NCBI RefSeq assembly: GCF_011043625.1
Contig: NZ_JAAKGT010000011.1
Coordinates: 62,001 to 126,000 of the forward strand
Source of the DNA: Caulobacter sp. 602-2
GTDB lineage: Bacteria; Pseudomonadota; Alphaproteobacteria; Caulobacterales; Caulobacteraceae
Reading direction: 5' to 3'
Length of the DNA stretch: 64,000 bases
Part shown: one piece after another, positions 9,365-64,000 of the stretch
Layout: every line of letters begins with the position of its first letter
Position numbering within the stretch: the stretch's first letter is position 1
Translations under genes and position numbers: made by a program
The notes under the pieces: model-generated
Told to the model about the DNA's origin: nothing
Seen by the model: only the letters and a program-made list of their open reading frames with translations
Database searches by the model: none

Positions 9365-10137
9365 GCGGCGGCTTCCTTCCTGTTCGGCGCGGCCCACAGC
9401 CAGGCGGTCAGCAGGCCGGCCAGCGCGCCGGCCGCCACCGTCCAGGCGCCCGGCGCCAGAAGGTGGCCGCTCGCGGCGACGGCCAGGCTGACCAGCCAGG
9501 GGCGGGCGGCCCGGAAGGTGGTCCACATGCCGCGCAGCAGCACCAGGAAGATCGCCGGGAAGGCCATGTCGAAGCCGAGGGTCTCGACGTTCCCCAGCAC
9601 CGGGCCGACCATCGCGCCCAGCGTCGTGAAGGCGATCCAGGCCAGCCACATCGGCAGGGCGACGCCCAGATAGTGCGCCAGGCTGAAGGTCCCGCGGGCC
9701 TTGGCGTCGGCCAGGGCCATGGCCCAGCTTTCGTCGCACATCAGGAACAGCGCCGGCAGCACCCGGCGCTTGGGCAGGGATTTTAGGAACGGCGCCAGCG
9801 CCGCGCCCATCAGCAGGTGGCGGCTGTTGACCATCAGGGTCACGGCCGCGATCAGCAGCAGGTGCGGCGGCGAGGTCCACAGGCCGATGGCCGCGAACTC
9901 CGATCCGCCGGCGAAGTTCAGGCCGGTCATCAGCGGCGTCTCGACGGCGGACAGGCCCTTCTGGGCGGCCTGGGCGCCCAGCACCAGGGCGAAGGGCGTG
10001 AACCCGGCGGTCACCGGCAGCGAGGCCAGCAGGCCGCGCCGAAATTCGGATCGCGATCGGTCGCGCCCGGATTCAGGACGCAGTTCGGAGAGCCGCTCGC
10101 CAGGCATGGCGGCGGGAGCGCAGGTTTCGATTGTCAT
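9361..10137 (-). CDS. azlC: AzlC-type branched-chain amino acid exporter large subunit
   Basis: A 258-residue protein with 6-7 hydrophobic segments. Motifs typical of AzlC/YgaZ are FRRGLLASLPVTAGFTPFALVLG near residue 35, the NFAGGSEFAAIGLW region, VTLMVNSRHLLMGAALAP, and FLMCDESWAM. The start at MTIETC is chosen for length. No clear ribosome-binding site precedes it, so MPGERL ten codons in is an alternative. It is divergent from lrp at 10278 with a 140-bp shared control region. Confidence 0.92.
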   Translation of the reverse strand: MTIETCAPAAMPGERLSELRPESGRDRSRSEFRRGLLASLPVTAGFTPFALVLGAQAAQKGLSAVETPLMTGLNFAGGSEFAAIGLWTSPPHLLLIAAVTLMVNSRHLLMGAALAPFLKSLPKRRVLPALFLMCDESWAMALADAKARGTFSLAHYLGVALPMWLAWIAFTTLGAMVGPVLGNVETLGFDMAFPAIFLVLLRGMWTTFRAARPWLVSLAVAASGHLLAPGAWTVAAGALAGLLTAWLWAAPNRKEAAA

Positions 10138-10231
10138 GGGCGACCGGGGGAGGGCGGTTGCGGGAAGGATTGGCAGCCTAGCGCAAACCTCGCGCAATCG
10201 GGTTGCGATCATGCTCCCATATGATCAATGA

Positions 10232-10259
10232 TTGGCATCAGGGCGAAATTGATCGCCAA
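10232..10259. promoter_or_regulatory. Candidate Lrp operator between azlC and the lrp-type gene
   Basis: Within the divergent intergenic region an AT-richer stretch carries nested inverted arms: TTGGC / GCCAA outside and GGCGA / TCGCC (10242-10257) inside. Lrp-family proteins bind degenerate palindromes of about 15 bp in such gaps. Position and symmetry are the only evidence. Confidence 0.35.
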
Positions 10260-10277
10260 ATCTTGGTTCTGGATTCC

Positions 10278-10736
10278 ATGAAGCTCGACGACATCGATCG
10301 CCGCATCCTTCGCGAACTGCAGAAGGACGGCCGCATCCAGAACGCCGAACTGGCCAAGCGGGTGGGCCTGTCGCCCTCGCCCTGCCTGCGTCGGGTGAAG
10401 ATCCTGGAGGAGGCGGGCGTGATCGCCCGCTACGTGGCGGTGCTCGACGCCGCCAAGGTCGGCCGGGGGCAGACCTTCTTCACCCGCATCTGGCTGAACG
10501 CCCAGCACGAGGACGCCGTCGACCACTTCGTCGCCGAGGTGAACAAGCTGCCCGAGGTGGTCGAGTGCTACGTCATGCTCGGCGACTGCGACATGCTGCT
10601 GCGCGTGGTCGCCGCCGACATCGCCGACTATCGCCGCTTCCAGGCCGATCACCTCAGCCGCATCCGGGGCGTGCTGAACGTCAAGACCGACGTCCCGGCC
10701 CAGACGGTCAAGCAGACCTTCGCGGTGCCGCTCTAG
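10278..10736 (+). CDS. Lrp/AsnC-family transcriptional regulator
   Basis: A 152-residue protein read from the ATG at 10278 (MKLDDIDRRILRELQKDGR), the canonical Lrp N-terminus. The HTH is IQNAELAKRVGLSPSPCLRRVKILEEAGVI and the C-terminal RAM domain contains VVECYVMLGDCDMLLRVVAADIADYRRF. Divergence from azlCD suggests that it controls amino acid export in response to a branched-chain amino acid, as with AzlB of Bacillus. The effector itself is inference. Confidence 0.93.
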   Translation: MKLDDIDRRILRELQKDGRIQNAELAKRVGLSPSPCLRRVKILEEAGVIARYVAVLDAAKVGRGQTFFTRIWLNAQHEDAVDHFVAEVNKLPEVVECYVMLGDCDMLLRVVAADIADYRRFQADHLSRIRGVLNVKTDVPAQTVKQTFAVPL

Positions 10737-10738
10737 AA

Positions 10739-10903
10739 TTTCACCTTCTCCCATAGGGAGAAGGGGGGGCGCGCCGTCAGGCGTGGGAGGATGAGGGGTT
10801 ACGCCTTCGACCGGCGTGCCGGCACGCCGTCGGGCGCCGTCACCCCTCACCCTCCCGTCGCGATGCGACGGGCCCCTCCCTCTCCCCTCCGGGAGAGGGT
10901 TGT
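10739..10903. repeat. Palindromic repeat, family R4, copy a
   Basis: Outer arms resemble TTCTCCCATAGGGAGAA and CTCCCCTCCGGGAGAGG; inner parts are GTGGGAGGATGAGGGGT facing ACCCCTCACCCTCCC. Related copies are at 17797 and 53621. It lies between two convergent genes. Confidence 0.75.
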
Positions 10904-12027
10904 TATTCCGCGGCCGCCGCCAGTTCAGCCGCCGGGCGGTACTTGTCCAGCCAGTGCGCGTACGGGGCCGGCAGGGTGGCCCAGGTCGGACGATCCACGC
11001 CCAGGATCTGTGCCAGCTCGTAGGGGTAGTGCGGGTTGGCCAGATGGGCGCGGCCGATCATCACCAGGTCCATCTGCTCGCTGGCGACCAGGCTTTCGGC
11101 CAGCTTGGGCGCGTCCAGGCCCCATGACGAGGCCACCGGCAAGCCGGCTTCCTCGCGCACGCGCTTGGCGATCGGGCCCAGGAACGGCGTGCCCCACGGA
11201 ATGCTGGTGTTGGGGATGGTGAAGCCGACGCTGACGTTCAGCAGGTCCAGGCCGCCGGCCTTCATCCGGCGGGTCAGGTCGATCGACTCGGCCAGGGTCT
11301 GCTCGTCGTGGCCGTCATATTCCAGCACGCCGAAACGGGCGGTCAGCGGCAGGTTCTCGGGCCATTCGGCGCGGACAGCCGCCAGGGTCTCTTCCATGAA
11401 CCGGCCCCGGCCGTGCGCGTCGCCGCCGTACTGGTCGGTGCGGTGGTTGGAGTGGTGCGAGAAGAAGCTCTGGGCCAGGTAGCCGTGGGCGAAGTGCAGC
11501 TCCAGCCATTCGAAGCCGGCCTCGCGGGCGCGGCGGGTCGCGGCGGCGAAGTCGGCCTTCACCCGCTCGATGTCGGCCAGGGTCATCTCGCGCGGGACCT
11601 TCGGCAGGCCCGCGCCGTAGGCGATGGCCGAGGGGGCGATGGTCTGCCAGCCGCGCGGATCGCCGTCGGCGATGTGGTCGTCGCCTTCCCAGGGACGGTT
11701 GGCGCTGGCCTTGCGGCCGGCGTGGGCGATCTGGATGCCGGGGACAGCGCCGGCCGCCTTGATGGCCGCGGCGATCCTGGCCAGGCCTTCAGCCTGCTCG
11801 TCGGTCCAGATGCCGGTGCAGCCGGGGCTGATGCGGCCTTCGGGCGAGACGGCCGTGGCCTCGACGATCACCAGGCTCGCGCCGCCGCGCGCCAGGCCGG
11901 CGTAGTGGGGCAGGTGCCAGTCGGTCGTGACGCCGTCCTCGGCGCTGTACTGGCACATCGGCGGAATGGCGATGCGGTTGCGAAGCTGGGCGTCCTTCAG
12001 GCGGAAGGGCGTGAACAGTGCGGACAT
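10903..12027 (-). CDS. NADH:flavin oxidoreductase, Old Yellow Enzyme family (YqjM type)
   Basis: A 374-residue FMN-dependent TIM-barrel ene-reductase. The N-terminus LFTPFRLKDAQLRNRIAIPPMCQYSAEDG carries the YqjM-class Cys (in MCQYS). GIQIAHAGRKAS holds the substrate-binding HAGR, followed by FEWLELHFAHGYLAQSFFSHHSNHRTDQYGG, and DLVMIGRAHLANPHYP sits at the C-terminal phosphate site. It reduces activated alkenes at the expense of NAD(P)H; the physiological substrate is unknown. The start at MSALF is supported by family length. Confidence 0.93.
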   Translation of the reverse strand: MSALFTPFRLKDAQLRNRIAIPPMCQYSAEDGVTTDWHLPHYAGLARGGASLVIVEATAVSPEGRISPGCTGIWTDEQAEGLARIAAAIKAAGAVPGIQIAHAGRKASANRPWEGDDHIADGDPRGWQTIAPSAIAYGAGLPKVPREMTLADIERVKADFAAATRRAREAGFEWLELHFAHGYLAQSFFSHHSNHRTDQYGGDAHGRGRFMEETLAAVRAEWPENLPLTARFGVLEYDGHDEQTLAESIDLTRRMKAGGLDLLNVSVGFTIPNTSIPWGTPFLGPIAKRVREEAGLPVASSWGLDAPKLAESLVASEQMDLVMIGRAHLANPHYPYELAQILGVDRPTWATLPAPYAHWLDKYRPAAELAAAAE

Positions 12028-12143
12028 GCGGGCGGGTGCTTTCGGGGAGGAAAGGGAATGGAGGCGGCAGAGGTGTAGGCCCGACCGGTGCGTCTCAAGT
12101 GCCGTTCGGGCGCAAGACCTGTGCCCTGGGGGCACAATGCCCG

Positions 12144-12662
12144 TTATTCGAGCGGCGCTTGCGAGCGCGCCGCGCGGGCCAGGCCGTGGAGCCAGGCCTG
12201 GTGGGCGTTGAGCATCGGGTTGGGCAGGGTGGCCGCCAGGTCGCGGGCCGGCCCGCCGTTCTGGGTCTCCTGGGTCAAGATCCGCAGGCGGCCGCCCGGC
12301 AGGTCTTCCAACAGCCAGGCGTGGTGGACGTCGAGCCGGGCCTCGCCTTCGCCCTCGACCCAGCCGCGCCAGGCGATACGGGCCGGCTCGCCCGCGACCG
12401 GCGGGACGAACTCGACCACCTGTCCTTCGACGGCGAAACCGAAGGTGGTGAAGGAAAAGCGGGCGCCGTCCGCCAGCCGCGGGCCGGGAACGTCGTGAAA
12501 CGCAATGTCGGCGGCGTTCTCGTAGTAGGTCGGCCAGGCCGTCGCGGTGGCGAGATAGGGCCAGGCGTCGGCGGCGGTCAGGTCCGGGACGATGATCTCG
12601 TTGGAGACGAAGTTGTCGGTGGTTCCGGGCAGGTAGCCCTCGGGCCAGCGGATGGCGTGCAT
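12144..12662 (-). CDS. SRPBCC (START-like) domain protein
   Basis: A 172-residue protein with the polyketide-cyclase/START layout: an N-terminal strand and helix (NEIIVPDLTAADAWPYLATATAWPTYYENAADIAF), a central sheet (GARFSFTTFGFAVEGQVVEFVP) and a long C-terminal helix (NPMLNAHQAWLHGLARAA). It is a hydrophobic-ligand pocket of unknown specificity. It is transcribed divergently from the LysR gene at 12766, which is therefore its likely regulator, and lies upstream of the Old Yellow Enzyme on the same strand. Confidence 0.8.
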   Translation of the reverse strand: MHAIRWPEGYLPGTTDNFVSNEIIVPDLTAADAWPYLATATAWPTYYENAADIAFHDVPGPRLADGARFSFTTFGFAVEGQVVEFVPPVAGEPARIAWRGWVEGEGEARLDVHHAWLLEDLPGGRLRILTQETQNGGPARDLAATLPNPMLNAHQAWLHGLARAARSQAPLE

Positions 12663-53620: not shown

Positions 53621-53806
53621 CTCTCCCATGGGGAGAGGGAGGGGCCCGCGCCGCAGGCGTGGGAGGGTGAGGGGGTAAGGCGCCGGCCCGCGCATGGCTT
53701 GAACGACGGCGCTGGGTTTGGGGGAGGGGACCGCAGGCGGTGCAACCCCTCACCCTCCCATGCTGCGCATGGGCCCCTCCCTCTCCCTCTGGGAGAGGTG
53801 TTTCCT
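53621..53806. repeat. Palindromic repeat, family R4, copy c
   Basis: AACCTCTCCCATGGGGAGAGGGAGGGGCCC...GTGGGAGGGTGAGGGG faces CCCCTCACCCTCCCATGCTGCGCATGGGCCCCTCCCTCTCCCTCTGGGAGAGG. Related to 10739 and 17797. It fills the gap between the flavin reductase gene and nodT. Confidence 0.85.
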
Positions 53807-55203
53807 TACGACCACCCGCCTCCCAGCGCCTTGTAGATGGCCACGACGTCGGTGTTGACGCCGGTCTCGGCGACGGTCAGCGCGTCTTCCGCCGCCAGCA
53901 GGGTGCGTTCGGCGTCGAGCAGCACCAGGAAGTCGATGCCGCCTTCCTTGTACTGGATGCGGGCCAGCTCGGCCGCGCGGCGCGAGGCGGCGGCCTGGTC
54001 GGCCAGGCTTTTGAGCCGGGCCTGGCGCTGGGCGTAGGAGACGAGCGCGGTCTCCAGGTCCTCGATCGCCGCCAGCACGGTCTGGTCGTAGGCCGCCAGC
54101 GCCGCGTCGTTGCGGGCTTCCGCCGCCTTCAGCCGCGCCCGGGCGCCGCCGAGGTCCAGAGCCGGCCAGCTGACCGCCGGGGCGATCGACCAGGCCTGGC
54201 TGGCGCTGTTGCCGAAGCCCGACGAGGTGCCCGACAGGAAGCCGACGAAGCCGCTGACCCGCACGCGCGGGAACAGGTCGGCGGTGGCCACGCCCACCTT
54301 GGCGGTCTGGGCCGCCAGGCGGCGTTCGGCCGCCTGCACGTCGGGACGGCGGCGCAGGAACTCGGACGCCTCGCCGATCGGCAGGGCGGCGACCAGCGGC
54401 GCGGGCTCCTCGGCGCGGGGCGCGAGCTGGGCGTCCAGTGCGCCCGGGCGCTGGCCGGTCAGGACGGCCAGGCGATAGTTGGCGCGCGTGGCGGCGGTGA
54501 CCAGGTCGGGGATCGTGCCTTCCGTGGCGTTGAGGCGCGCCTCGGCGCTGGCGACGTCGATGGCCCCGCCGGCCCCGGCCTCGAACCGCACGCGGGTCAG
54601 GCGCAGGGTGTCGCGCTGGGTCTCGAGGTTGCGGCGGGCCACCGCCAGGCGGGCCTGGGCGCCGCGCAGTTCCAGATAGTTGCGGGCCACCTCGGCGGCG
54701 ACGCTGACCTGCACGTCGCGCAGGTCGGCCTGGGCCGCGCCGGCCTCGGCGCCGGCGGCCTGCACGCCGCGGCGCACCCGGCCGAACAGGTCGATCTCCC
54801 AGGCCGCGTCGAGGCCGGCGCGATAGCTCTCGACCTCGACCCGCTGGTCGGAGAAGCCGGGCTGCTGCTGCTTGGTGTCGGTGTAGCCGCCCGAGGCGGT
54901 GACCCGCGGGATCTGGTCGAGGCGCGCGTCCTTGAACAGGGCGCGGGCTTCGTCGACGCGGGCCACGGCGACCTTGAGGTCGAGATTGGCGGCCAGGGCC
55001 TGGGAGACCAGGGCGTCGAGCGTCGGGTCGCCGAACGCCTTCCACCACTGGGCCTCGGGATTGGCGGCGGTGGAGGCGACGGCGGGCGTCGCGTTCTGGA
55101 GGGCGACGGGGGCGGGCGTCGGGGCCTTGTAGGTCGGGCCGACGGCGCAGGCCGTGGCCAGCAGCGAGGCGCCGGCGATCAGGGCTGTGCGAAGGAGGGT
55201 CAT
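53806..55203 (-). CDS. nodT: NodT/OprM-type outer-membrane efflux lipoprotein
   Basis: A 465-residue TolC-like outer-membrane factor with a lipoprotein signal (MTLLRTALIAGASLLATAC, lipidated Cys19; AVGPTYKAP follows as in OprM/NodT). Two homologous outer_membrane_efflux repeats are visible, with EAQWWKAFGDPTLDALVSQALAANLDLKVAVARVDEAR and FLRRRPDVQAAERRLAAQTAKVGVATADLFPRV as hallmark segments. It provides the exit duct of the AcrAB pump encoded upstream in the same operon. Confidence 0.95.
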   Translation of the reverse strand: MTLLRTALIAGASLLATACAVGPTYKAPTPAPVALQNATPAVASTAANPEAQWWKAFGDPTLDALVSQALAANLDLKVAVARVDEARALFKDARLDQIPRVTASGGYTDTKQQQPGFSDQRVEVESYRAGLDAAWEIDLFGRVRRGVQAAGAEAGAAQADLRDVQVSVAAEVARNYLELRGAQARLAVARRNLETQRDTLRLTRVRFEAGAGGAIDVASAEARLNATEGTIPDLVTAATRANYRLAVLTGQRPGALDAQLAPRAEEPAPLVAALPIGEASEFLRRRPDVQAAERRLAAQTAKVGVATADLFPRVRVSGFVGFLSGTSSGFGNSASQAWSIAPAVSWPALDLGGARARLKAAEARNDAALAAYDQTVLAAIEDLETALVSYAQRQARLKSLADQAAASRRAAELARIQYKEGGIDFLVLLDAERTLLAAEDALTVAETGVNTDVVAIYKALGGGWS

Positions 55204-55279
55204 GGGAGCCTCGGAAGTCTCCCTTCCCCCGAGAGGGAAGGGACAGGGATGGGTGTGCTTGGGTTGGGAAGCGAGGCGA

Positions 55280-58200
55280 TCAGCCGTGGGCCTGGGCCTC
55301 CGCCGCCGGGGCCGTCTTGACGGTCGCCAGCGACTTGCGGCCCGAGAGCCGGCGGATGACGTAGTAGAACACCGGCGTCAGGATCAGGCCGAAGACGGTG
55401 ACGCCCAGCATGCCGGAGAACACCGCCACGCCCATGGCCCGGCGCATCTCCGCGCCCGCCCCGTGCGACACCACCAGCGGCCAGACGCCCATGATGAAGG
55501 CGATCGAGGTCATCAGGATGGGACGCAGGCGCAGGCGGCAGGCCTCCAGCACCGCCTGGAGCGGCGTGTCGCCCTCGATCTCGCGTTCGCGGGCGAACTC
55601 GACGATCAGGATGGCGTTCTTGCACGCCAGCCCCACCAGCACGATCAGGCCGATCTGGGTGAAGATGTTGTTGTCGCCGCCGGTGACCAGCACGCCGACC
55701 AGGGCCGACAGCAGGGTCATCGGAACGATCAGGATCACCACCAGCGGCAGGCTCCAGCTTTCGTACTGGGCGACCAGCACGAGGAAGGCCAGCAGCACGC
55801 ACAGCGGGAAGATGTAGATCGCCGTGTTGCCGGCCAGGATCTGCTGGTAGGTCAGCTCGGTCCATTCGAAGCCGATGCCGTTGGGCAGTTCCTCGGCCGC
55901 GATCTTCTCCAGCGCCGCCTGGGCCTGGCCGGTCGAGAAGCCGGGCGCCGGGCCGCCGTTGATCTCGGCGGTCAGCATGCCGTTGTAGTGCATCTCGCGG
56001 TCGGGACCGGTGGCCTCCTTGAAGCTGACAAAGGCGCCCAGCGGGATCATCTGGCCGTCGCCGTTGCGGGTCTGCAGGCGCAGCATCTGCTCGGGCTGCA
56101 GGCGGAAGTCCTGGTCGGCCTGCACGTTGACCTCGTAGGTCCGCCCGAAGCGGTTGAAGTCGTTGACGTACAGCGAGCCCAGATAGACCTGCAGGGTCTC
56201 GAACAGGTCGGTCAGCGACACGCCCTGGGCCCGGGCCTTCTCACGATCGATGTCGGCCTGGATCTTCGGAACGCTGACCTGGTAGCTGGAGAAGACGCCG
56301 GCCAGGGCCGGATCCTTCTGCGCCTTGGCGATGATCGCCTGGGTCTGCTTGTAGAGCTCGTCCGAGCCGAGGCCGGCCTTGTCGACGATCTGCATGCGGA
56401 ACCCGCCGATGGTGCCCAGCCCCTGCACGGACGGCGGCGGGAAGACCGCGATCTGGGCGTCGGGGATGGCGGCGAACTTCTGGTTCAGCTGGCCCACGAT
56501 GGCCCCGGCCGAGAGCTCCTTGCCGCGGCGGTCCTTGAAGTCGCTGAGCGGGAAGAACACCGCGCCGGCGTTGGGGCTGTTGATGAAGCCGTTGGCCGAC
56601 AGGCCCGGGAAGGCCACCGAGTGCTCGATGCCCGGGGTCTTCATGGCGATGTCGCCCATCTGCTTGATCACGGCCTCGGTGCGGTCCAGCGAGGCGGCGT
56701 CGGGCAGCTGCACGACGGCGACCACATAGGCCTTGTCCTGCTGCGGCACGAAGCCGGACGGGGTGCGGGCGAACGCGAGAGCGGTGAGCAGCAGCAGGCC
56801 GCCATAGACGAACAGCGAGGCGGTCGAACGGCCCAGCGTCGCCTTCACGCCGCGGACATAGCCGTTCGAGGCGCGGTGGAAGACCTTGTTGAAGGGAACG
56901 AACAGCCAGCCCAGCAAGCGGTCGATCAGCTTCTGGAAGCGGTCCTTGGGCGCGTGGTGCGACTTCAGGAGCACGGCGGCCAGGGCCGGCGACAGGGTCA
57001 GCGAGTTGACGGCCGAGATGATCGTCGAGATGGCGATCGTCAGGGCGAACTGACGGTAGAACTGGCCCGACAGGCCGGTGATGAACGCCGTGGGGATGAA
57101 CACGGCGCACAGCACCAGGGCCACGGCGATGATCGGGCCGGTGACCTCGCTCATCGCCTTGCGGGTGGCTTCGGGCGGCGAGAGGCCGTTCTCGATGTGC
57201 CGCTCGACGTTCTCGACCACGACGATGGCGTCGTCGACGACGATGCCGATCGCCAGCACCAGGCCGAACAGGGTCAGCGCGTTGAGGCCGAAGCCCAGCA
57301 GCAGCATGATCGCGAAGGTGCCGATCAGCGACACCGGCACGGCCAGCAGCGGGATCACCGAGGCGCGCCAGCCCTGCAGGAAGATCACCACCACGATGAC
57401 CACCAGGATGATGGCCTCGATCAGGGTGTGGACCACCGAGTCGATGCTTTCCTGCACGAAGGCGGTGGTGTCGTAGATGATCTCGTAGTCGACGCCCTCG
57501 GGGAAGTCCTTCTTCAGCTCCTTCATGGTCTTCTTGACCTCGGCCGCCATCTCCAGGGCGTTGGAGCCCGGGCGCTGGAAGATCGGCACGGCCACGGCCG
57601 ACTTGTTGTCGAGCAAGCTGCGCAGGGCGTAGTTGTTGGCGCCCAGCTCCACGCGGGCCACGTCGCCCAGGCGGGTGATCTGGCCGTCGGCGCCCGAGCG
57701 GATGATGACGTTGCGGAACTGGTCCTCGTCGGTCAGGCGCCCGGGGGCGTTGATCGACAGCTGGAAGTCGGCGCCCGAGCCGGCGTTGGGCGGCGCGCCC
57801 AGCTGGCCGGCGGCCACCTGCACGTTCTGCTCGCGCAGGGCGCGGACGACGTCGCCGGCGGTCATGCCGAGCGCGGCCACCTTCTCCGGATCCAGCCACA
57901 CCCGCATGGAGTAGGCGCCGGCGCCGAAGATCTGCACGTCGCCCACGCCGTCGATGCGCTTGAGCCGATCACGCACGTTCAGCTGCGCGTAGTTGCTGAG
58001 GTACAGCATGTCGTAGCGGTTGTTGGGCGAGACCATGTGCACGACCAGGGTCAGGTCGGGCGAGGCCTTGTTGGTGGTCACGCCGATGCGCTGCACCTCC
58101 TGGGGCAGTTTCGGCAGGGCCTGGGCCACGCGGTTCTGAACCTGCACCTGGGCCTTATCCAGGTCGGTGCCCAGCGCGAAGGTCACGGTCAGGATCATGG

Positions 58201-58465
58201 CCCCGTCCGAGGCCGACTGGGACGACTGGTAGATCATCCCCTCGACGCCGTTGATGGCCTGCTCCAGCGGGGCGGCCACGGTCTCGCCGATCACCGACGG
58301 GTTGGCGCCGGGATAGGCCGCGCGCACGACGACCGTCGGCGGCACCACTTCGGGGTACTCGCTGATCGGCAGGTTGGGCAGGGCCACGAGCCCCGCGATG
58401 AAGATGACGATGGACAGCACGGCGGCGAACCGCGGTCGTCCGACGAAGAATTTTGCGAAATTCAT
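55280..58465 (-). CDS. acrB: RND multidrug efflux permease (HAE1, AcrB-like)
   Basis: A 1061-residue inner-membrane proton/drug antiporter. It begins with FFVGRPRFAAVLSIVIFIAGLVALPNLPISEYPEVVPPTVVVRAAYPGANP, carries the proton-relay aspartates in GLVLAIGIVVDDAIVVVENVERH, and contains FIPTAFITGLSGQFYRQFALTIAISTIISAVNSLTLSPALAAVLL and the C-terminal NAILIVEFAREREIEG. It forms the tripartite pump with AcrA and NodT. The gene ends with a 16-residue Ala-rich tail. Confidence 0.97.
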   Translation of the reverse strand: MNFAKFFVGRPRFAAVLSIVIFIAGLVALPNLPISEYPEVVPPTVVVRAAYPGANPSVIGETVAAPLEQAINGVEGMIYQSSQSASDGAMILTVTFALGTDLDKAQVQVQNRVAQALPKLPQEVQRIGVTTNKASPDLTLVVHMVSPNNRYDMLYLSNYAQLNVRDRLKRIDGVGDVQIFGAGAYSMRVWLDPEKVAALGMTAGDVVRALREQNVQVAAGQLGAPPNAGSGADFQLSINAPGRLTDEDQFRNVIIRSGADGQITRLGDVARVELGANNYALRSLLDNKSAVAVPIFQRPGSNALEMAAEVKKTMKELKKDFPEGVDYEIIYDTTAFVQESIDSVVHTLIEAIILVVIVVVIFLQGWRASVIPLLAVPVSLIGTFAIMLLLGFGLNALTLFGLVLAIGIVVDDAIVVVENVERHIENGLSPPEATRKAMSEVTGPIIAVALVLCAVFIPTAFITGLSGQFYRQFALTIAISTIISAVNSLTLSPALAAVLLKSHHAPKDRFQKLIDRLLGWLFVPFNKVFHRASNGYVRGVKATLGRSTASLFVYGGLLLLTALAFARTPSGFVPQQDKAYVVAVVQLPDAASLDRTEAVIKQMGDIAMKTPGIEHSVAFPGLSANGFINSPNAGAVFFPLSDFKDRRGKELSAGAIVGQLNQKFAAIPDAQIAVFPPPSVQGLGTIGGFRMQIVDKAGLGSDELYKQTQAIIAKAQKDPALAGVFSSYQVSVPKIQADIDREKARAQGVSLTDLFETLQVYLGSLYVNDFNRFGRTYEVNVQADQDFRLQPEQMLRLQTRNGDGQMIPLGAFVSFKEATGPDREMHYNGMLTAEINGGPAPGFSTGQAQAALEKIAAEELPNGIGFEWTELTYQQILAGNTAIYIFPLCVLLAFLVLVAQYESWSLPLVVILIVPMTLLSALVGVLVTGGDNNIFTQIGLIVLVGLACKNAILIVEFAREREIEGDTPLQAVLEACRLRLRPILMTSIAFIMGVWPLVVSHGAGAEMRRAMGVAVFSGMLGVTVFGLILTPVFYYVIRRLSGRKSLATVKTAPAAEAQAHG

Positions 58466-58546
58466 GGGAGGCGTCCGGGGAGGGGAGGGACGTACAAGGT
58501 CGTTCCCTCCCCCTTTGATGGGGGAGGGGAGCGTTCAGAGGGGCCG

Positions 58547-58638
58547 CCCTCGTCCTTCGACAGGCTCAGGATGAGGGCTAGTTTTGCGAGGGGCGGGTCG
58601 GTTGAGACCCTCATCCCGAGCTTGTCGAAGGACGAGGG
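58547..58638. repeat. Inverted repeat R5 between acrA and acrB
   Basis: Arms at 58547-58577 and 58608-58638 are 31 bp long with 29 matches; the core of each is TCCTTCGACA(A/G)GCTC(A/G)GGATGAGGG. It sits in the 188-bp gap inside the operon and would form a very stable hairpin in the mRNA between acrA and acrB. Confidence 0.9.
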
Positions 58639-58653
58639 GGTCGCGCTCCGCCG

Positions 58654-59829
58654 TCAGTTCTGCTGCACGGGGCTGGCGACCGCGGCCACCTTCTGCGGGC
58701 CGACTTCCAGCTGGCCGAGGTCGGCGGCTTCAGTCTTGACCGCCACCGGCGCGACGGTGTCGCCCGGCTTGACCTTCTGCAGGCCGCCGACGATCACCCG
58801 GTCGCCGGGCTTGAGGCCCTGGCGGACGACGCGAAGGTTGCCGGCCAGCGGACCCACCTCGACCGGGCGGTACTGGGCCTTGTTGGCCTGGTCGACGACG
58901 ATCACATAGCGCTTGCCAAGGTCGGTCGCGATGGCGCGGTCGGGGGCCAGGGCCACCGTCTGGGCGGCGGCGCTGACCAGGCGGATGCGGGCGAACAGGC
59001 CCGGCGTGAACTTGCCGTCGGCGTTGGCGAAGATCGCCCGGCCGCTGATCGTGCCGCTCTTGGCGTCCAGCGCGTTGTCGATGAACGACAGCTTGCCCAC
59101 GTGCGGATAGCCGTCCTCGGTCATCAGCCCCATATAGACCGGGCTTTCCTTGCCGCGCTCGGCGGCGGCGTACTTCAGGAAGGTCTGCTCGTCGGCGCTG
59201 AAGGCCGCGTAGATCGGCGCGTCGGAGACCACCGTGGTCAGCATGTCGGCCTGGGTGACCAGGTTGCCGCGGGTGATGCGGGCCTTGGAGACGCGGCCGT
59301 CGATCGGCGAGACCACGCGGGTCCATTCCAGGTTCAGGCGGGCGGTCTGCAGGGCGGCCTGGGCGGCGGCCAGATTGGCCTGGGCGGCCTTCTCTTCCGA
59401 GGCCAGGCGGTCGAATTCGCTGCGGGCCAGGGCGTTCTGGTCGATCAGCCGCTGGCCGCGCTCGCGGTTGACGACGGCCAGATCAAGGCCGGCCTTGGCG
59501 CGGGCCACTTCGGCGCCGGCGCGGGCGGCTTCGGCCTGGAACGGGCGCGGGTCGATCTCGAACAGCACCTGGCCCTTGCGGACATAGGCGCCTTCGGCGA
59601 AGCGCACGGCGTTCACGTAGCCGCCGACGCGGGGCCGGATGTCGACGGTGTCGACCGCTTCCAGGCGGCCGGTGAAGTCGTCCCACTGGCGCAGCGACTT
59701 GAAGGCCACGTCGGCGACGGTGACCTGCACGGCGGGAGCGGGGCCCTGTTCGGGCTTGGCCTGGGCGCTGCAGGCGGTGAGGACCGCCAGCGCGGCGAGG
59801 CCGGCGAAGGTGTTGATGGCTTGGCGCAT
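58654..59829 (-). CDS. acrA: RND efflux periplasmic adaptor (AcrA-like lipoprotein)
   Basis: A 391-residue membrane-fusion protein. The lipoprotein signal is MRQAINTFAGLAALAVLTAC (Cys20). The lipoyl/hairpin region is FTGRLEAVDTVDIRPRVGGYVNAVRFAEGAYVRKGQVLFEIDPRPFQAE, followed by LASEEKAAQANLAAAQAALQTARLNLEWTRVVSPIDGRVSKARITRGNLV. It bridges AcrB and NodT in the periplasm. It is the first large gene of the acrA-acrB-nodT operon. Confidence 0.96.
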   Translation of the reverse strand: MRQAINTFAGLAALAVLTACSAQAKPEQGPAPAVQVTVADVAFKSLRQWDDFTGRLEAVDTVDIRPRVGGYVNAVRFAEGAYVRKGQVLFEIDPRPFQAEAARAGAEVARAKAGLDLAVVNRERGQRLIDQNALARSEFDRLASEEKAAQANLAAAQAALQTARLNLEWTRVVSPIDGRVSKARITRGNLVTQADMLTTVVSDAPIYAAFSADEQTFLKYAAAERGKESPVYMGLMTEDGYPHVGKLSFIDNALDAKSGTISGRAIFANADGKFTPGLFARIRLVSAAAQTVALAPDRAIATDLGKRYVIVVDQANKAQYRPVEVGPLAGNLRVVRQGLKPGDRVIVGGLQKVKPGDTVAPVAVKTEAADLGQLEVGPQKVAAVASPVQQN

Positions 59830-60238: not shown

Positions 60239-60880
60239 ATGGCTGCGAGAAAATCTGGGGAGGTCGGCTCGGGGGAGCTGGGAGCCGGGACGGCGTGCGC
60301 GCCGGACGGTCCGCCAGCGTCCAAGAGGCCCGCCCGCGACCGGATCTTCGAGACGGCCCGCGAGCTCTTCTACCAGCACGGCATCCGGGCCGTCGGCGTC
60401 GAGGCCATCGCGGCCGAGGCCGAGGCCACCAAGATGACGCTGTACCGGAACTTTCCGTCGAAGGACGAACTGGTCGCCGAGGTCCTGCGCGAGCAGGAGC
60501 GCGAGTACTGGGCCTGGTGGGACGGGGTGACGGCGTGCTGCTGCACCGACCCGCGCGCCCAGCTGGAGGCGATCTTCGACGCCTTCGAGACCAAGGCCTG
60601 CGACATGAACGTCCACGGCTGCCCGCTGTCGAACGCCGCCATCGAGCTGCACGAGGAAAACCACCCGGCCCAGCAGGTGTCGGTGAACTACAAGCGCTCG
60701 CTGCACGGCCGGCTGATCGACCTGTGCCGCCGCGCCGGCGCGGCCGACGACGAACTGGCCGACGCCCTGATGCTGCTGATGGAGGGCTCCTACACCGCCC
60801 GCGTCACCCTCGGCGCCGACGGCCCGGCCCGCTCGGTCGCCCGCGCCGCGCGGAGCCTGATCCGCGTGCATCTGGGGTAG
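60239..60880 (+). CDS. TetR/AcrR-family repressor, likely of acrAB-nodT
   Basis: A 213-residue regulator. After a 30-residue polar extension the HTH is RDRIFETARELFYQHGIRAVGVEAIAAEAEATKMTLYRNFPSKDELVAEVLREQEREYW (about 33-91). The ligand domain contains several Cys (ACCCTDPRAQ, ACDMNVHGCPL) that could sense reactive compounds, which is speculation. It is divergent from the acr operon with two related palindromes between them, the classic local-repressor layout. Confidence 0.93.
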   Translation: MAARKSGEVGSGELGAGTACAPDGPPASKRPARDRIFETARELFYQHGIRAVGVEAIAAEAEATKMTLYRNFPSKDELVAEVLREQEREYWAWWDGVTACCCTDPRAQLEAIFDAFETKACDMNVHGCPLSNAAIELHEENHPAQQVSVNYKRSLHGRLIDLCRRAGAADDELADALMLLMEGSYTARVTLGADGPARSVARAARSLIRVHLG

Positions 60881-60886
60881 GGTCCG

Positions 60887-61141
60887 ATGGGGCTGGTCTG
60901 GCGCTTCCTGGCCTTCGTCCTGCTGGTCGCCGTCGTGTTCGGCGGCAAGCTGCTGGTGATCGACGGCGGCTGGCCGGGCCAAGACCTCGGCGCCTGGGCC
61001 ATGTTCGCCGGCGTCACGGTCGGGATCGCCGCGCTGCTGTTCGGGCTTGAGCGTCTGCTCAGCCTGTTATCGCCGCGCCGGGGGCGCTTTGGCCGCCGTA
61101 AGCCCGTCGATCTCCTGAAGGACTGGCCGCCCGGGCTCTAG
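60887..61141 (+). CDS. Small two-helix membrane protein
   Basis: An 84-residue protein with two hydrophobic segments (WRFLAFVLLVAVVFGGKLLVI and GAWAMFAGVTVGIAALLFGLERLLSLL) and a basic C-terminus (PRRGRFGRRKPVDLLKDWPPGL). It starts 6 bp after the tetR stop with AGGG before the ATG, so it is probably co-transcribed with the repressor. No known family. Confidence 0.65.
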   Translation: MGLVWRFLAFVLLVAVVFGGKLLVIDGGWPGQDLGAWAMFAGVTVGIAALLFGLERLLSLLSPRRGRFGRRKPVDLLKDWPPGL

Positions 61142-61599
61142 CTCGCGATCTTCGCCGCCAGGCCACGGGCCCCCGCAACGGCGTCGGCCCAGGTGATCTC
61201 GAAGCCGGCGTCGTCGCCGTAATAGGGATCGGCCACGGCCTGACCGGCGCGTCCGTCGACATGGTCGAGCAGCAGGCTCAGCCGCGCCGGGCTTCCCGCC
61301 GGCGCCAGCCGCCGCAGGTTGCGCAGATTGTCGAGGTCCAGCGCCACCACGTGGTCGAAGCGCTCGAAATCGGCCGCCGTCACCTGGCGGGCCGCATATT
61401 GGCCGATCTCGACCCCGTGCCGCCGCGCCGTCGCCTGCGCCCGACGGTCGGGCGGATCGCCCGCGTGCCAGCCGCTGGTGCCGGCCGAATCCACGACGAC
61501 GTCCAGCCCCCGCCGTTCGGCTTCCTGCCGGAAGGCGGCCTCGGCCAGAGGCGATCGACAGATGTTGCCCAGGCAGACGAACAGCACGGAAACGGTCAT
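61138..61599 (-). CDS. Low-molecular-weight protein-tyrosine-phosphatase-like protein
   Basis: A 153-residue enzyme. The P-loop near the N-terminus is VLFVCLGNICRSPLAEA (catalytic Cys9, Arg15), and the general-acid loop is DPYYGDDAGFE (Asp near 124). Typical LMW-PTP length. It may dephosphorylate tyrosine kinases of exopolysaccharide synthesis or act as an arsenate-reductase-like enzyme, but no such partner lies near. It overlaps the convergent small membrane protein gene by 4 bp. Confidence 0.93.
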   Translation of the reverse strand: MTVSVLFVCLGNICRSPLAEAAFRQEAERRGLDVVVDSAGTSGWHAGDPPDRRAQATARRHGVEIGQYAARQVTAADFERFDHVVALDLDNLRNLRRLAPAGSPARLSLLLDHVDGRAGQAVADPYYGDDAGFEITWADAVAGARGLAAKIAS

Positions 61600-61680
61600 G
61601 TGCAATCGCTAGGGCCAAACCCGCCGCGCCGACAACGCCTATTTTTGGATGGCTCCCAGGGGGCGACGCCCCGCCGTAAA

Positions 61681-61736: not shown

Positions 61737-62399
61737 TCAGACGGCGCAGCTGGCGGTTTCGGTGTCTTCGTCGGTCTTGTCGTAGGCGCGCAGGCTGCCG
61801 TCTTCGTTGGTGTAGATGAACAGCAGCATGTTCGGATCGGCGGTGATGCCGCGCGGCAGCGTGGTGCTGTTGACCAGGGCGTTGTACTGGTCCCAGTCGC
61901 CGCCCACGTGGTTCGACGGCGTGCGGTCGTCGACGCCGGCGACGTCCGGATGGTTGTGGACGTAGCCGACGATGCGGGCGCCGTCCGGCACGCCGCTGGA
62001 GCCGATCTGGACCTGACCGGTGTCGTTCTGGGTGTAGATGGCGCCCATGCCGACCGTGCCGTTGAGCTCCCAGATGAGCGCGCCGTACTCGAAGGTCTCG
62101 TCGTTGCCGGCGGCGATCTGAGCGGCTGCCGAGCGGGCCGTGTCGAGGATCGCGCCCGGCGCCACGCCCTCGGGCGAGGCTTCGACGCAGGGCGGATATT
62201 CTTCGGTGATGCCGTCGCCGCCGCCGTCGGGGCCGACGCCGCCGTCACCGCCGTCCCACCAGCCGTCGCCGCCGTCGCCGCCGTCCCACCAGCCGTCCCA
62301 GCCGTCGCCGTCGCCGCCGTCGGCCGTGACGGTGATGCCGTCGACTTCGTCGGCGCCGCCGGTGACGAAGTCGAGCTCTTCTAGGGTCAACTCACGCAT
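61737..62399 (-). CDS. Double-glycine-leader protein A with JAMM/JAB-like domain
   Basis: A 220-residue protein in three parts. (1) The leader MRELTLEELDFVTGG is the bacteriocin-type signal cut after Gly15 by C39-peptidase ABC exporters. (2) A Gly/Asp/Trp linker, residues about 28-64, is made of repeating GDGWDGWWDGGDGG-like units. (3) A domain of about 150 residues runs from Cys71 to Cys218 with VGYVHNHPDV (His148, His150, Pro151), Ser162, Asp168/Asp170 and an upstream Glu104 in FEYGALIWELNG, the order of a JAMM metalloprotease site as in JAB/DUF4329-like domains. The exact JAMM spacing is not met. A processed, exported metalloenzyme or toxin is possible. No exporter or immunity gene is adjacent. 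Confidence 0.8.
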   Translation of the reverse strand: MRELTLEELDFVTGGADEVDGITVTADGGDGDGWDGWWDGGDGGDGWWDGGDGGVGPDGGGDGITEEYPPCVEASPEGVAPGAILDTARSAAAQIAAGNDETFEYGALIWELNGTVGMGAIYTQNDTGQVQIGSSGVPDGARIVGYVHNHPDVAGVDDRTPSNHVGGDWDQYNALVNSTTLPRGITADPNMLLFIYTNEDGSLRAYDKTDEDTETASCAV

Positions 62400-62410
62400 A
62401 CAGAATCCAC

Positions 62411-62441
62411 CTGTCTGGAAAACACCCTCAAAGCGGGTGTT
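62411..62441 (-). promoter_or_regulatory. 5' leader element of gene A
   Basis: On the minus strand a hairpin AACACCC / GGGTGTT (62421-62441) is followed by CCAGACAGGTG, which carries the ribosome-binding site. The same 11-mer after another hairpin precedes gene B. Confidence 0.55.
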
Positions 62442-62549
62442 GTGAAATCATGCATGCCAAGGTCGAGCTTGCGAGGCGCCTCTGCGGGCTGCGTGATAAC
62501 AATATCGTTATCCTGGGTTGCAGTTATGAAAATACGCATTTGGCGCGAA

Positions 62550-62577
62550 ACGGCGAGCCGAAAGTGCGGCTCGCCGT
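62550..62577 (-). terminator. Terminator of double-glycine protein gene B
   Basis: ACGGCGAGCCG / CGGCTCGCCGT, an 11-bp stem with a 6-nt loop, then TTTCGCG on the minus strand. It lies 19 bp after the gene B stop and is similar in sequence to the gene A terminator. Confidence 0.7.
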
Positions 62578-62596
62578 CCGCATCAGGCTGAGCGCG

Positions 62597-63253
62597 TCAG
62601 ACGGCGCAGCTGGCGGTGGTCGTGCCTTCGTCGGTCTTGTCGTAGGCGCGGACCTTGCCGTCTTCGTTGGTGTAGATGAACAACAGCATGTTCGGGTCGG
62701 CGGTGATGCCGCGCGGCAGCGAGGTGCTGTTGATCAGGCCGTTGTACTGATCCCAGTCGCCGCCGGCGTGGTCGGAAGGCGTGCGGTCGTCGATGCCGCC
62801 CACGTCCGGGTGGTTGTGGATGTAGCCCACGATACGGGCGCCGTCCGGCACGCCGCCGGCGCCGATCTGGACCTGACCGGTGTTGTTCTGCGTGTAGATG
62901 TTGCCCACGCCGACAACGCCGTTGAGCTCGTAGATGAGCGCGCCGTACTCGTAGGTCTCGTCGTTGCCGGCCGCGATCTGGCTGGCCGCGTTGCGGGCCG
63001 CGTCGAGGATCGCGCCCGGCGCCACGCCCTCGGGCGAGGCTTCGACGCACGGCGGATACTCCTCGGCCGGGGGATCGCCGCCGTCTCCGCCGCCGCCGTC
63101 GTACCCGCCGTCGCCGCCGTCATAGCCGCCGTCCCACCAGCCGTCCCAGCCATCCCAGCCGTCGCCGTCGCGGGTGCCCGTGACCGTGATCGTCTCGAGC
63201 GTATCGATACCGCCGCTGATCAGTTCAAGCTCTTCCAAGGTCAGCTCACGCAT
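62597..63253 (-). CDS. Double-glycine-leader protein B with JAMM/JAB-like domain
   Basis: A 218-residue tandem paralogue of protein A. The leader is MRELTLEELELISGG, the linker is richer in Tyr (GGYDGGDGGYDGGGG), and the C-terminal domain is highly similar, from EEYPPCVEASPEGVAPGAIL to TASCAV, with Cys69 and Cys216, Glu102, VGYIHNHPDV (His146, His148), Ser160 and Asp166/Asp168. Variation is concentrated in the leader-linker part, whereas the HNHP domain is conserved, so that domain is under selection. Gene, terminator and 5' element are duplicated as one unit. Likely role: secreted effector, bacteriocin or surface enzyme; not established. Confidence 0.8.
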   Translation of the reverse strand: MRELTLEELELISGGIDTLETITVTGTRDGDGWDGWDGWWDGGYDGGDGGYDGGGGDGGDPPAEEYPPCVEASPEGVAPGAILDAARNAASQIAAGNDETYEYGALIYELNGVVGVGNIYTQNNTGQVQIGAGGVPDGARIVGYIHNHPDVGGIDDRTPSDHAGGDWDQYNGLINSTSLPRGITADPNMLLFIYTNEDGKVRAYDKTDEGTTTASCAV

Positions 63254-63453: not shown

Positions 63454-64000
63454 TTGACGCCAGCGCCGTTGCCCATCGCGCCCCGCACCCTTGGCGAGGC
63501 GCTCGCCCGGAGCATGCGCGAGGCCGGTTTCGAGGCGAGCGCGCGACTGTTCGACGACATCACCTCCAGGCACCGCGTGCCGCCCAAGATGGCTTCGGCC
63601 TTCGGCGCCTACGCGGCCTATTGGGGCCAGGCCGACGCCGCCGAGCGGGCCTACGCCCTGGCGGTGGAGCCCGGCGCGTCGCCGGAAATGCTGATGAACC
63701 GGGGTCTGGCCCGCCTGCGGCTGGGCGACTGGCGCGACGGCTGGGGCGACATGGAACATCGCCTCGAGGCTCTGCGCCTGACCCCCTTCGCCGAACTGCG
63801 CGGCAAGGAGAGCGGGCGCTCGGTCGAGCGCTGGCGCCGGGGCGAGCCCGTTCCCCAAGAGCTGTTGGTGTTTCCCGAGCAGGGGCTGGGCGACACCCTG
63901 CAGTTCGCGCGCTTCCTGCCCGACCTGGTCGGGCGCGGGGTCGCCGTCACCGTGGTCGGCCGGCCGTATCTGGAGCCGGCGATCGCCAGCCTGAGCGACG
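63454..64000 (+). CDS. TPR-repeat protein with O-GlcNAc-transferase-like C-terminal region (partial)
   Basis: The frame is open from a TTG at 63454 (AGAGGGG upstream) to the window end, 182 residues. It begins LGEALARSMREAGFEASARLFDDITSRH, continues with TPR-like AFGAYAAYWGQADAAERAYALAVEPG and MLMNRGLARLRLGDWRDGWGDMEHRL, then RWRRGEPVPQELLVFPEQGLGDTLQFARFLPDLVGRGVAVTVV. The EQGLGDxxQFARFLP motif is typical of TPR proteins with a glycosyltransferase-like (GT41-related) second half. ATG at 63514 is an alternative start. It is divergent from gene B. Confidence 0.75.
   Translation, partial: MTPAPLPIAPRTLGEALARSMREAGFEASARLFDDITSRHRVPPKMASAFGAYAAYWGQADAAERAYALAVEPGASPEMLMNRGLARLRLGDWRDGWGDMEHRLEALRLTPFAELRGKESGRSVERWRRGEPVPQELLVFPEQGLGDTLQFARFLPDLVGRGVAVTVVGRPYLEPAIASLSD

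Follow-up and report, generated by a model that had tools for sequence, protein, structure and literature searches.

What does a bacteriocin-type leader do in front of a folded, enzyme-like domain, and by which route would such a protein leave the cell? In Gram-negative bacteria, small peptides are the known cargo of export through double-glycine leaders and C39 peptidases. The question is raised by a stretch of 64,000 nucleotides from Caulobacter sp. 602-2 (the window), in which two tandem open reading frames described in the initial annotation were confirmed on the minus strand, with products that are 80% identical. Each product has the same architecture, a 15-residue leader, a linker of 48-50 residues and a domain of 155 residues:

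61737..62399, minus strand: cargo gene 1 (P0001), 220 aa, leader, linker and JAMM-like domain
62355..62399, minus strand: double-glycine leader of gene 1, MRELTLEELDFVTGG, with predicted C39 cleavage after GG
62205..62354, minus strand: W/G/D-rich linker of gene 1, 50 residues (20 Gly, 13 Asp, 5 Trp)
62597..63253, minus strand: cargo gene 2 (P0002), 218 aa, tandem paralogue of gene 1
63209..63253, minus strand: double-glycine leader of gene 2, MRELTLEELELISGG
63065..63208, minus strand: W/G/D-rich linker of gene 2, 48 residues

Both ORFs have a GC3 of ~0.92 and a codon bias resembling that of the neighbouring genes. The duplication and the conserved putative active site had been taken as arguments for selection, and the comparison of the two genes agrees with this, synonymous changes exceeding replacement changes (dN/dS ~0.43), a value consistent with moderate purifying selection on the pair. 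A scan for promoters and terminators found nothing, and a stretch CCAGACAGGTG beside the start codons, considered as a shared upstream motif, is confined to the tandem pair and absent at the other loci. The pair is adjoined by a low-molecular-weight phosphotyrosine phosphatase gene (61138-61605), and the window also contains an RND efflux operon (outer-membrane lipoprotein, RND pump and adaptor) with a TetR-type regulator (53806-59829 and 60239-60880).

The leader has the form MRELTLEEL..GG in both proteins and comprises residues 1-15, ending in the glycine pair. The classical double-glycine consensus has Leu at -12, Glu at -8, Leu at -7, Val or Ile at -4 and Gly at -2 and -1. Both leaders agree with it, having GG at -1/-2 together with the conserved positions -4, -7, -8 and -12, as the initial annotation had proposed. 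When the pattern MREL[ST]xxExxxxxGG was searched at the DNA level, exactly three matches were obtained in the 5.17 Mb genome, corresponding to the three paralogues (the third is described below). Among 75 congeneric genomes there were eight matches in four (three of them this genome's own copies), leaving 71 without a match, and the reversed pattern used as control had zero matches in the same 75 genomes. A chance origin of the leader is thus ruled out, because the pattern marks only the three paralogues here and the control gave none. A looser pattern matched 10 of 390 genomes of the family, against one control match. Among the weak matches of the proteins in Pfam and NCBIfam, those of note were to the leader-type models Mersacidin and CCRG-2.

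A leader of this kind calls for an exporter, which the initial annotation had advised looking for beyond the 64 kb. A complete HlyD, C39-ABC and TolC set was indeed found immediately outside the window, in a region (L005) whose coordinates become window coordinates by adding 55999:

63454-64653, plus strand: TPR/glycosyltransferase-9-like gene at the start of the exporter locus, divergent from the cargo, leaving the window at 64000
64844-66151, beyond the window: HlyD, divergent from the cargo
66154-68289, beyond the window: ABC transporter with an N-terminal C39 peptidase (PF03412 8.7e-28, PF00664, PF00005)
68295-69767, beyond the window: TolC-type outer-membrane protein
L005:13771-16556, beyond the window: following genes for a Fic protein, a DUF6932 nucleotidyltransferase-like protein and a DUF6817/2OG-Fe(II) oxygenase

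The window stops 0.55 kb into the exporter locus, and the genes from HlyD to TolC are located 0.8-5.8 kb beyond its edge. Cargo and exporter genes are divergent and belong to separate operons. The C39 domain is intact, with the catalytic Cys15, His88 and Asp104 present, and the transporter is the sole C39 exporter of the genome; the other C39-like match is weak (26.6 bits), has no Cys and belongs to an ABC transporter beside a second HlyD-like gene. Searched against a plasmid collection, the transporter falls into a peptidase-ABC class that is widespread (2541 records, none reaching 60% identity). Exporters of this class are found in 15 of the 75 congeners, among them all five congeners with leader matches, a co-occurrence with a naive p of 1.7e-4 when the congeners are counted as if unrelated.

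The cargo itself has, behind the linker, a domain in which the following elements can be located:

61740..62204, minus strand: JAMM/JAB-like domain of gene 1, residues 66-220
62088..62090, minus strand: putative JAMM Glu104 of gene 1, invariant among relatives
61947..61958, minus strand: HNHP motif of gene 1, residues 148-151
61896..61916, minus strand: Ser162...Asp168 of gene 1
62600..63064, minus strand: JAMM/JAB-like domain of gene 2, residues 64-218
62948..62950, minus strand: putative JAMM Glu102 of gene 2
62807..62818, minus strand: HNHP motif of gene 2, residues 146-149
62756..62776, minus strand: Ser160...Asp166 of gene 2

Protein 1 has Glu104, H148-N-H150-P151, Ser162 and Asp168, flanked by Cys71 and Cys218, and protein 2 has the same set numbered two lower, so that the JAMM order and the flanking Cys pair noticed in the initial annotation are present in both. 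In an alignment of 12 diverse relatives the Glu, a Gly and HxHP are invariant and the Ser is nearly so. The canonical JAMM spacing is Ser-x2-Asp. Most relatives have it, whereas the window pair has Ser-x5-Asp, an insertion of about three residues. Searches of Pfam and NCBIfam gave no model above cut-off for the pair, Tox-JAB-2/DUF4329 and Toxin-JAB1 included. An AlphaFold2 model built from four sequences, with moderate scores (mean pLDDT 78.7, pTM 0.81), has helix, strands, HxHP, helix and strands in the order expected for JAMM. Foldseek comparison of the model with the PDB placed BRCC36, an MPN-type chain of the EMC complex and Rpn8/Rpn11 at the top, with no match at E 0.001, and ranked cytidine deaminases, which have a related fold, next; in a viral structure library the top match was a JAB protein (2.5e-4, probability 1.00). 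A profile search of PDB sequences gave mostly BRCC36, RPN11, AfJAMM and RadC at the top, each with E 0.03-1. Furthermore, profile-profile comparison with 15 Prok-JAB/RadC proteins of the same order reached E 3.5e-6 (probability 87.6), pairing Glu with Glu and HNHP..S..D with H-HP..PS..D, and column-shuffled controls gave no match. Model, structure search and profile comparison all favour the JAB fold that the initial annotation had suggested comparing, and as a prediction the JAMM/JAB fold of the cargo domain is well supported.

The third paralogue is located on contig 9 (C9:12329-12946, equivalent to L004:8330-8947), with no exporter nearby. It retains the leader, the linker and the overall domain sequence, and its HNHP has become QNQS, a change by which the metal site was probably lost. 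This copy is likely a pseudoenzyme served by the same exporter as the window pair and, since it is still a full-length ORF despite the loss of HNHP, enzymatic activity may not be the sole function of these proteins.

Sequence searches detected relatives of the domain in the same family, and profile searches detected them in other, related families of the order and in the genus. A class-wide profile search gave matches only from the family Caulobacteraceae, and a GTDB scan with an alignment query returned one relative. None was found in viral contigs, plasmids or phages with the sequence patterns and tblastn searches applied, and one match in the genome G214 (L011) was discarded as a TonB-receptor match. 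Homologues without the GG leader, which had been regarded as unfavourable to a leader-borne effector, do exist, and the interpretation has to be widened accordingly. They belong to a modular, toxin-like family in which the domain stands alone or at the C terminus, in one case that of an Rhs protein (L022), a point in favour of a toxin. The leaderless relatives at L015 and L016 are followed by a small exported protein gene, and several relatives have weak Toxin-JAB1 or DUF4329 matches (0.0056-0.1). Two JAB toxin clades have been described in polymorphic toxins, Tox-JAB-1 and Tox-JAB-2, the second overlapping DUF4329, with the choice between peptidase and nuclease left undecided (Zhang et al. 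2012, PMC3482391). A JAB warhead is a known kind of toxin domain.

Other cargo travels behind the same leader in related genomes. Congener G209 has the same exporter locus (identities of 76% for HlyD, 81% for ABC, 63% for TolC, 56% for Fic, 78% for the nucleotidyltransferase and 76% for the 2OG oxygenase) and three leader proteins with a WDGWWDGG linker, two beside the exporter and one elsewhere in the genome. Two of the three end in domains with HELGH or HELEH zinc motifs, and one relative has HDLSH (L044:10047-11407, L043:9957-10700); one of the two zincin-motif proteins has a weak likeness to Peptidase_M91 (0.003). Directly upstream of this exporter locus there is a broken double-glycine leader (MRELTLKEMNLVTGR..., L113:333-635), which may be what is left of a cargo gene since lost. 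G203 has a leader-JAMM gene that is divergent beside its own HlyD/C39-ABC genes, the transporter being 58% identical to that of the window genome, and that is followed by the gene of a small exported protein. G273 codes for a 389-residue leader protein with HELAH beside HlyD/C39-ABC, and its stop codon overlaps the start of a lipoprotein-like gene. In G182, on a contig too short to reveal an exporter, a leader precedes an SLT-like domain (weak, 0.051) and the gene overlaps that of an LprI lysozyme inhibitor (1.8e-12; L057:843-1544 and 325-852), the two being, from their domains, likely a toxin-immunity pair. Further large leader proteins, accompanied by exported partners and C39 exporters, are encoded in G202 and G201/G270, and G211 and G191 have Cdz-type glycine-zipper peptides behind the same leader, so that the leader set spans classical bacteriocins and enzyme cargo. 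The linker, mainly Gly, Asp and Trp in WDGWWDGG repeats, is common to the window proteins and the zincin cargo of G209. A constant leader with exchangeable JAMM, HExxH and other domains, and with the same linker in the window genome and G209, is the arrangement by which polymorphic toxins are recognised.

The survey also brought up very acidic leader proteins of ~157-182 mature residues (L078:4018-6530, L080:5944-6462 and 10005-12426), two of the three followed by a signal-peptide protein, one with a prolyl-oligopeptidase (S9) domain. At L082:9858-11719 and L050:1395-2434 leader proteins stand beside predicted exported proteins that look, by eye, of the ClpP/crotonase type (SGGG...CxSxC).

We consider it rather likely that the window pair are enzyme toxins of the adjacent C39-peptidase type I secretion system, that is, a small polymorphic-toxin system built on a bacteriocin exporter. 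As the leader consensus and the adjacency of the genes suggest, the C39 domain of the ABC transporter would recognise the 15-residue leader and cut after Gly14-Gly15, and the remaining ~205 residues would be threaded unfolded through ABC, HlyD and TolC to the outside. There the JAMM-like domain would fold, possibly closed by a Cys71-Cys218 disulfide, and use His148, His150 and Asp168 as metal ligands and Glu104 as the general base; the fold is supported by the comparisons above, and metal and activity are those expected of it. The product would be a hydrolase, most likely a peptidase, acting on competing bacteria, and the W/G/D-rich linker may hold or present the domain at the surface. Leader, linker and exporter would form a constant frame for exchangeable toxin enzymes. 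This exporter subgroup would need to be more permissive for size, because CvaAB of E. coli loses efficiency at 116 residues and the cargo has ~205. Further points against the reading are the failure of any Pfam or NCBIfam model to reach cut-off, the unusual Ser-Asp spacing, the full-length contig-9 copy without HNHP and the divergence of cargo and exporter genes.

An immunity function is the point at which this reading is most exposed. An exported or lipoprotein partner is encoded adjacent to the leader gene in G203, G121, G124, G182, G202 and G273 but not at the window pair. The small immunity-like ORF that had been anticipated among the neighbours is not adjacent; neither an immunity-like gene nor an exported or lipoprotein partner was found beside the pair in the window and the fetched flank, and the window genome has no homologue of the G203 partner protein. 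A small exported protein encoded ~11 kb away (L005:18599-19033) was considered as an orphan immunity protein and rejected, having no detectable similarity to the partners in G203, G121 and G124. These partners and that protein do not make up a single immunity family either, as judged by detectable similarity. Either folding only outside protects the producer, or its immunity gene is located elsewhere, or the pair are not weapons.

The last of these options would make the pair C39-exported enzymes, secreted or surface-bound, that trim surface proteins of the producer itself or polymers of its environment; no immunity gene would then be needed, because the enzyme is not a toxin. The lack of an adjacent immunity-like gene and of a G203 partner homologue agrees with this, as do the duplication under moderate purifying selection and the TPR/GT9-like and oxygenase genes in the neighbourhood. 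Nevertheless we regard it as unlikely, considering that relatives combine the same leader and exporter with domains of the antagonism type and partner genes, that one JAMM relative forms the C terminus of an Rhs protein and that the spread is patchy (leader in 4 of 75 congeners), which is typical for weapons.

A toxin could also act as a nuclease instead of a peptidase, as was suggested for toxin JABs by Zhang et al. 2012, where these were argued to lack the tunnel residues for ubiquitin-like tails (PMC3482391); the RadC clade among our profile matches would fit. A nuclease would have to reach the cytoplasm, and the proteins show no domain for translocation, whereas the zincin- and transglycosylase-like sister cargo of G209, G273 and G182 suits extracellular or periplasmic targets. 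Nuclease activity of the JAMM-like domain is for us likewise unlikely.

The linker deserves attention of its own. Homologues of the 2OG-Fe(II) oxygenase (E below 1e-10) occur in exactly three of the 75 congeners, the window genome, G209 and G203, and in all three the oxygenase gene shares the leader-cargo locus with homologues of Fic and of the nucleotidyltransferase (L005:13771-16556, L014:10789-12736, L044:7915-13077). Among the congeners examined, W/G-rich linkers were found only in these same three genomes. From this co-occurrence, the enzyme set may modify the linker, by hydroxylation and then nucleotidylation. Common descent of the locus accounts for part of the pattern in G209 and for less of it in G203, because the transporter there is 58% identical. 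A broader proposal, possible but doubtful, is that we are dealing with a new polymorphic-toxin route, in which a C39 bacteriocin exporter ships enzymes of 180-375 residues behind a constant leader and a W/G/D-rich linker, and the linker, modified by the 2OG-Fe(II) oxygenase, Fic and nucleotidyltransferase proteins (e.g. hydroxylation then nucleotidylation), serves as surface anchor or receptor-binding element. It is quite improbable that the JAMM-like fold is catalytically dead or structural, with the activity residing in the W/G/D-rich segment, a modified peptide similar to bacteriocins. The contig-9 paralogue with leader and linker but without HNHP, the sharing of the linker by different domains and the enzyme set tracking it point that way, but both window copies retain Glu, HxHP and Ser, which 12 diverse relatives also conserve, and the linker is of low complexity, neither amphipathic nor zipper-like.

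Returning to the pair as exported enzyme toxins, the separate parts (double-glycine/C39 export, JAB toxin domains and polymorphic toxins) are already known. Their combination, C39 export of enzyme toxin cargo, was not found in the literature searched, a search that left most subscription journals and preprints outside its scope. If whole enzymes are exported, bacteriocin exporters would be a route for polymorphic enzyme toxins, and such cargo would have been overlooked by microcin searches that combine leader and size. It would also make available an experimentally accessible system for cleaving and exporting enzymes, and give a role between bacteria to the JAMM fold, whose chemistry in toxin JABs may be that of a peptidase or of a nuclease.

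Among known systems, the Tox-JAB-1 and Tox-JAB-2 toxins (PF15659, DUF4329 PF14220) share with the window proteins the JAB/JAMM fold as a C-terminal toxin module, RHS proteins included. They differ in that their delivery is described without C39 exporters (the terms 'type I secretion' and 'T1SS' are absent from PMC3482391) and in that the window proteins fall below the threshold of both Pfam models. The JAMM/MPN+ metallopeptidases (BRCC36, Rpn11, AfJAMM) have the same order of Glu, HxHP, Ser and Asp and the same predicted fold; unlike them, the window proteins are predicted to be extracellular, with an extra Cys pair, Ser-x5-Asp and no ubiquitin system implied. On the export side, class II microcins such as MccV (CvaAB-TolC) also use a double-glycine leader, a C39 ABC transporter, an HlyD-type adaptor and TolC, but their cargo are small peptides without an enzyme domain, and the related MccV exporter of E. 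coli, the one exporter examined for cargo size, disfavours cargo of more than ~100 residues, export falling sharply at 116 residues (PMC10231218). The Cdz system of Caulobacter crescentus (CdzC/CdzD, PMC5380434) is also from the Caulobacteraceae and likewise has two related cargo proteins, which leave by type I secretion and have a leader with G[G/A/S] at its end. As the initial annotation had held, these known Caulobacter substrates are small (60-151 residues, with glycine zippers) and they come with the CdzI immunity protein, whereas the window pair, with no adjacent immunity gene, would deliver a mature cargo of 203-205 aa with a predicted metalloenzyme-like domain.
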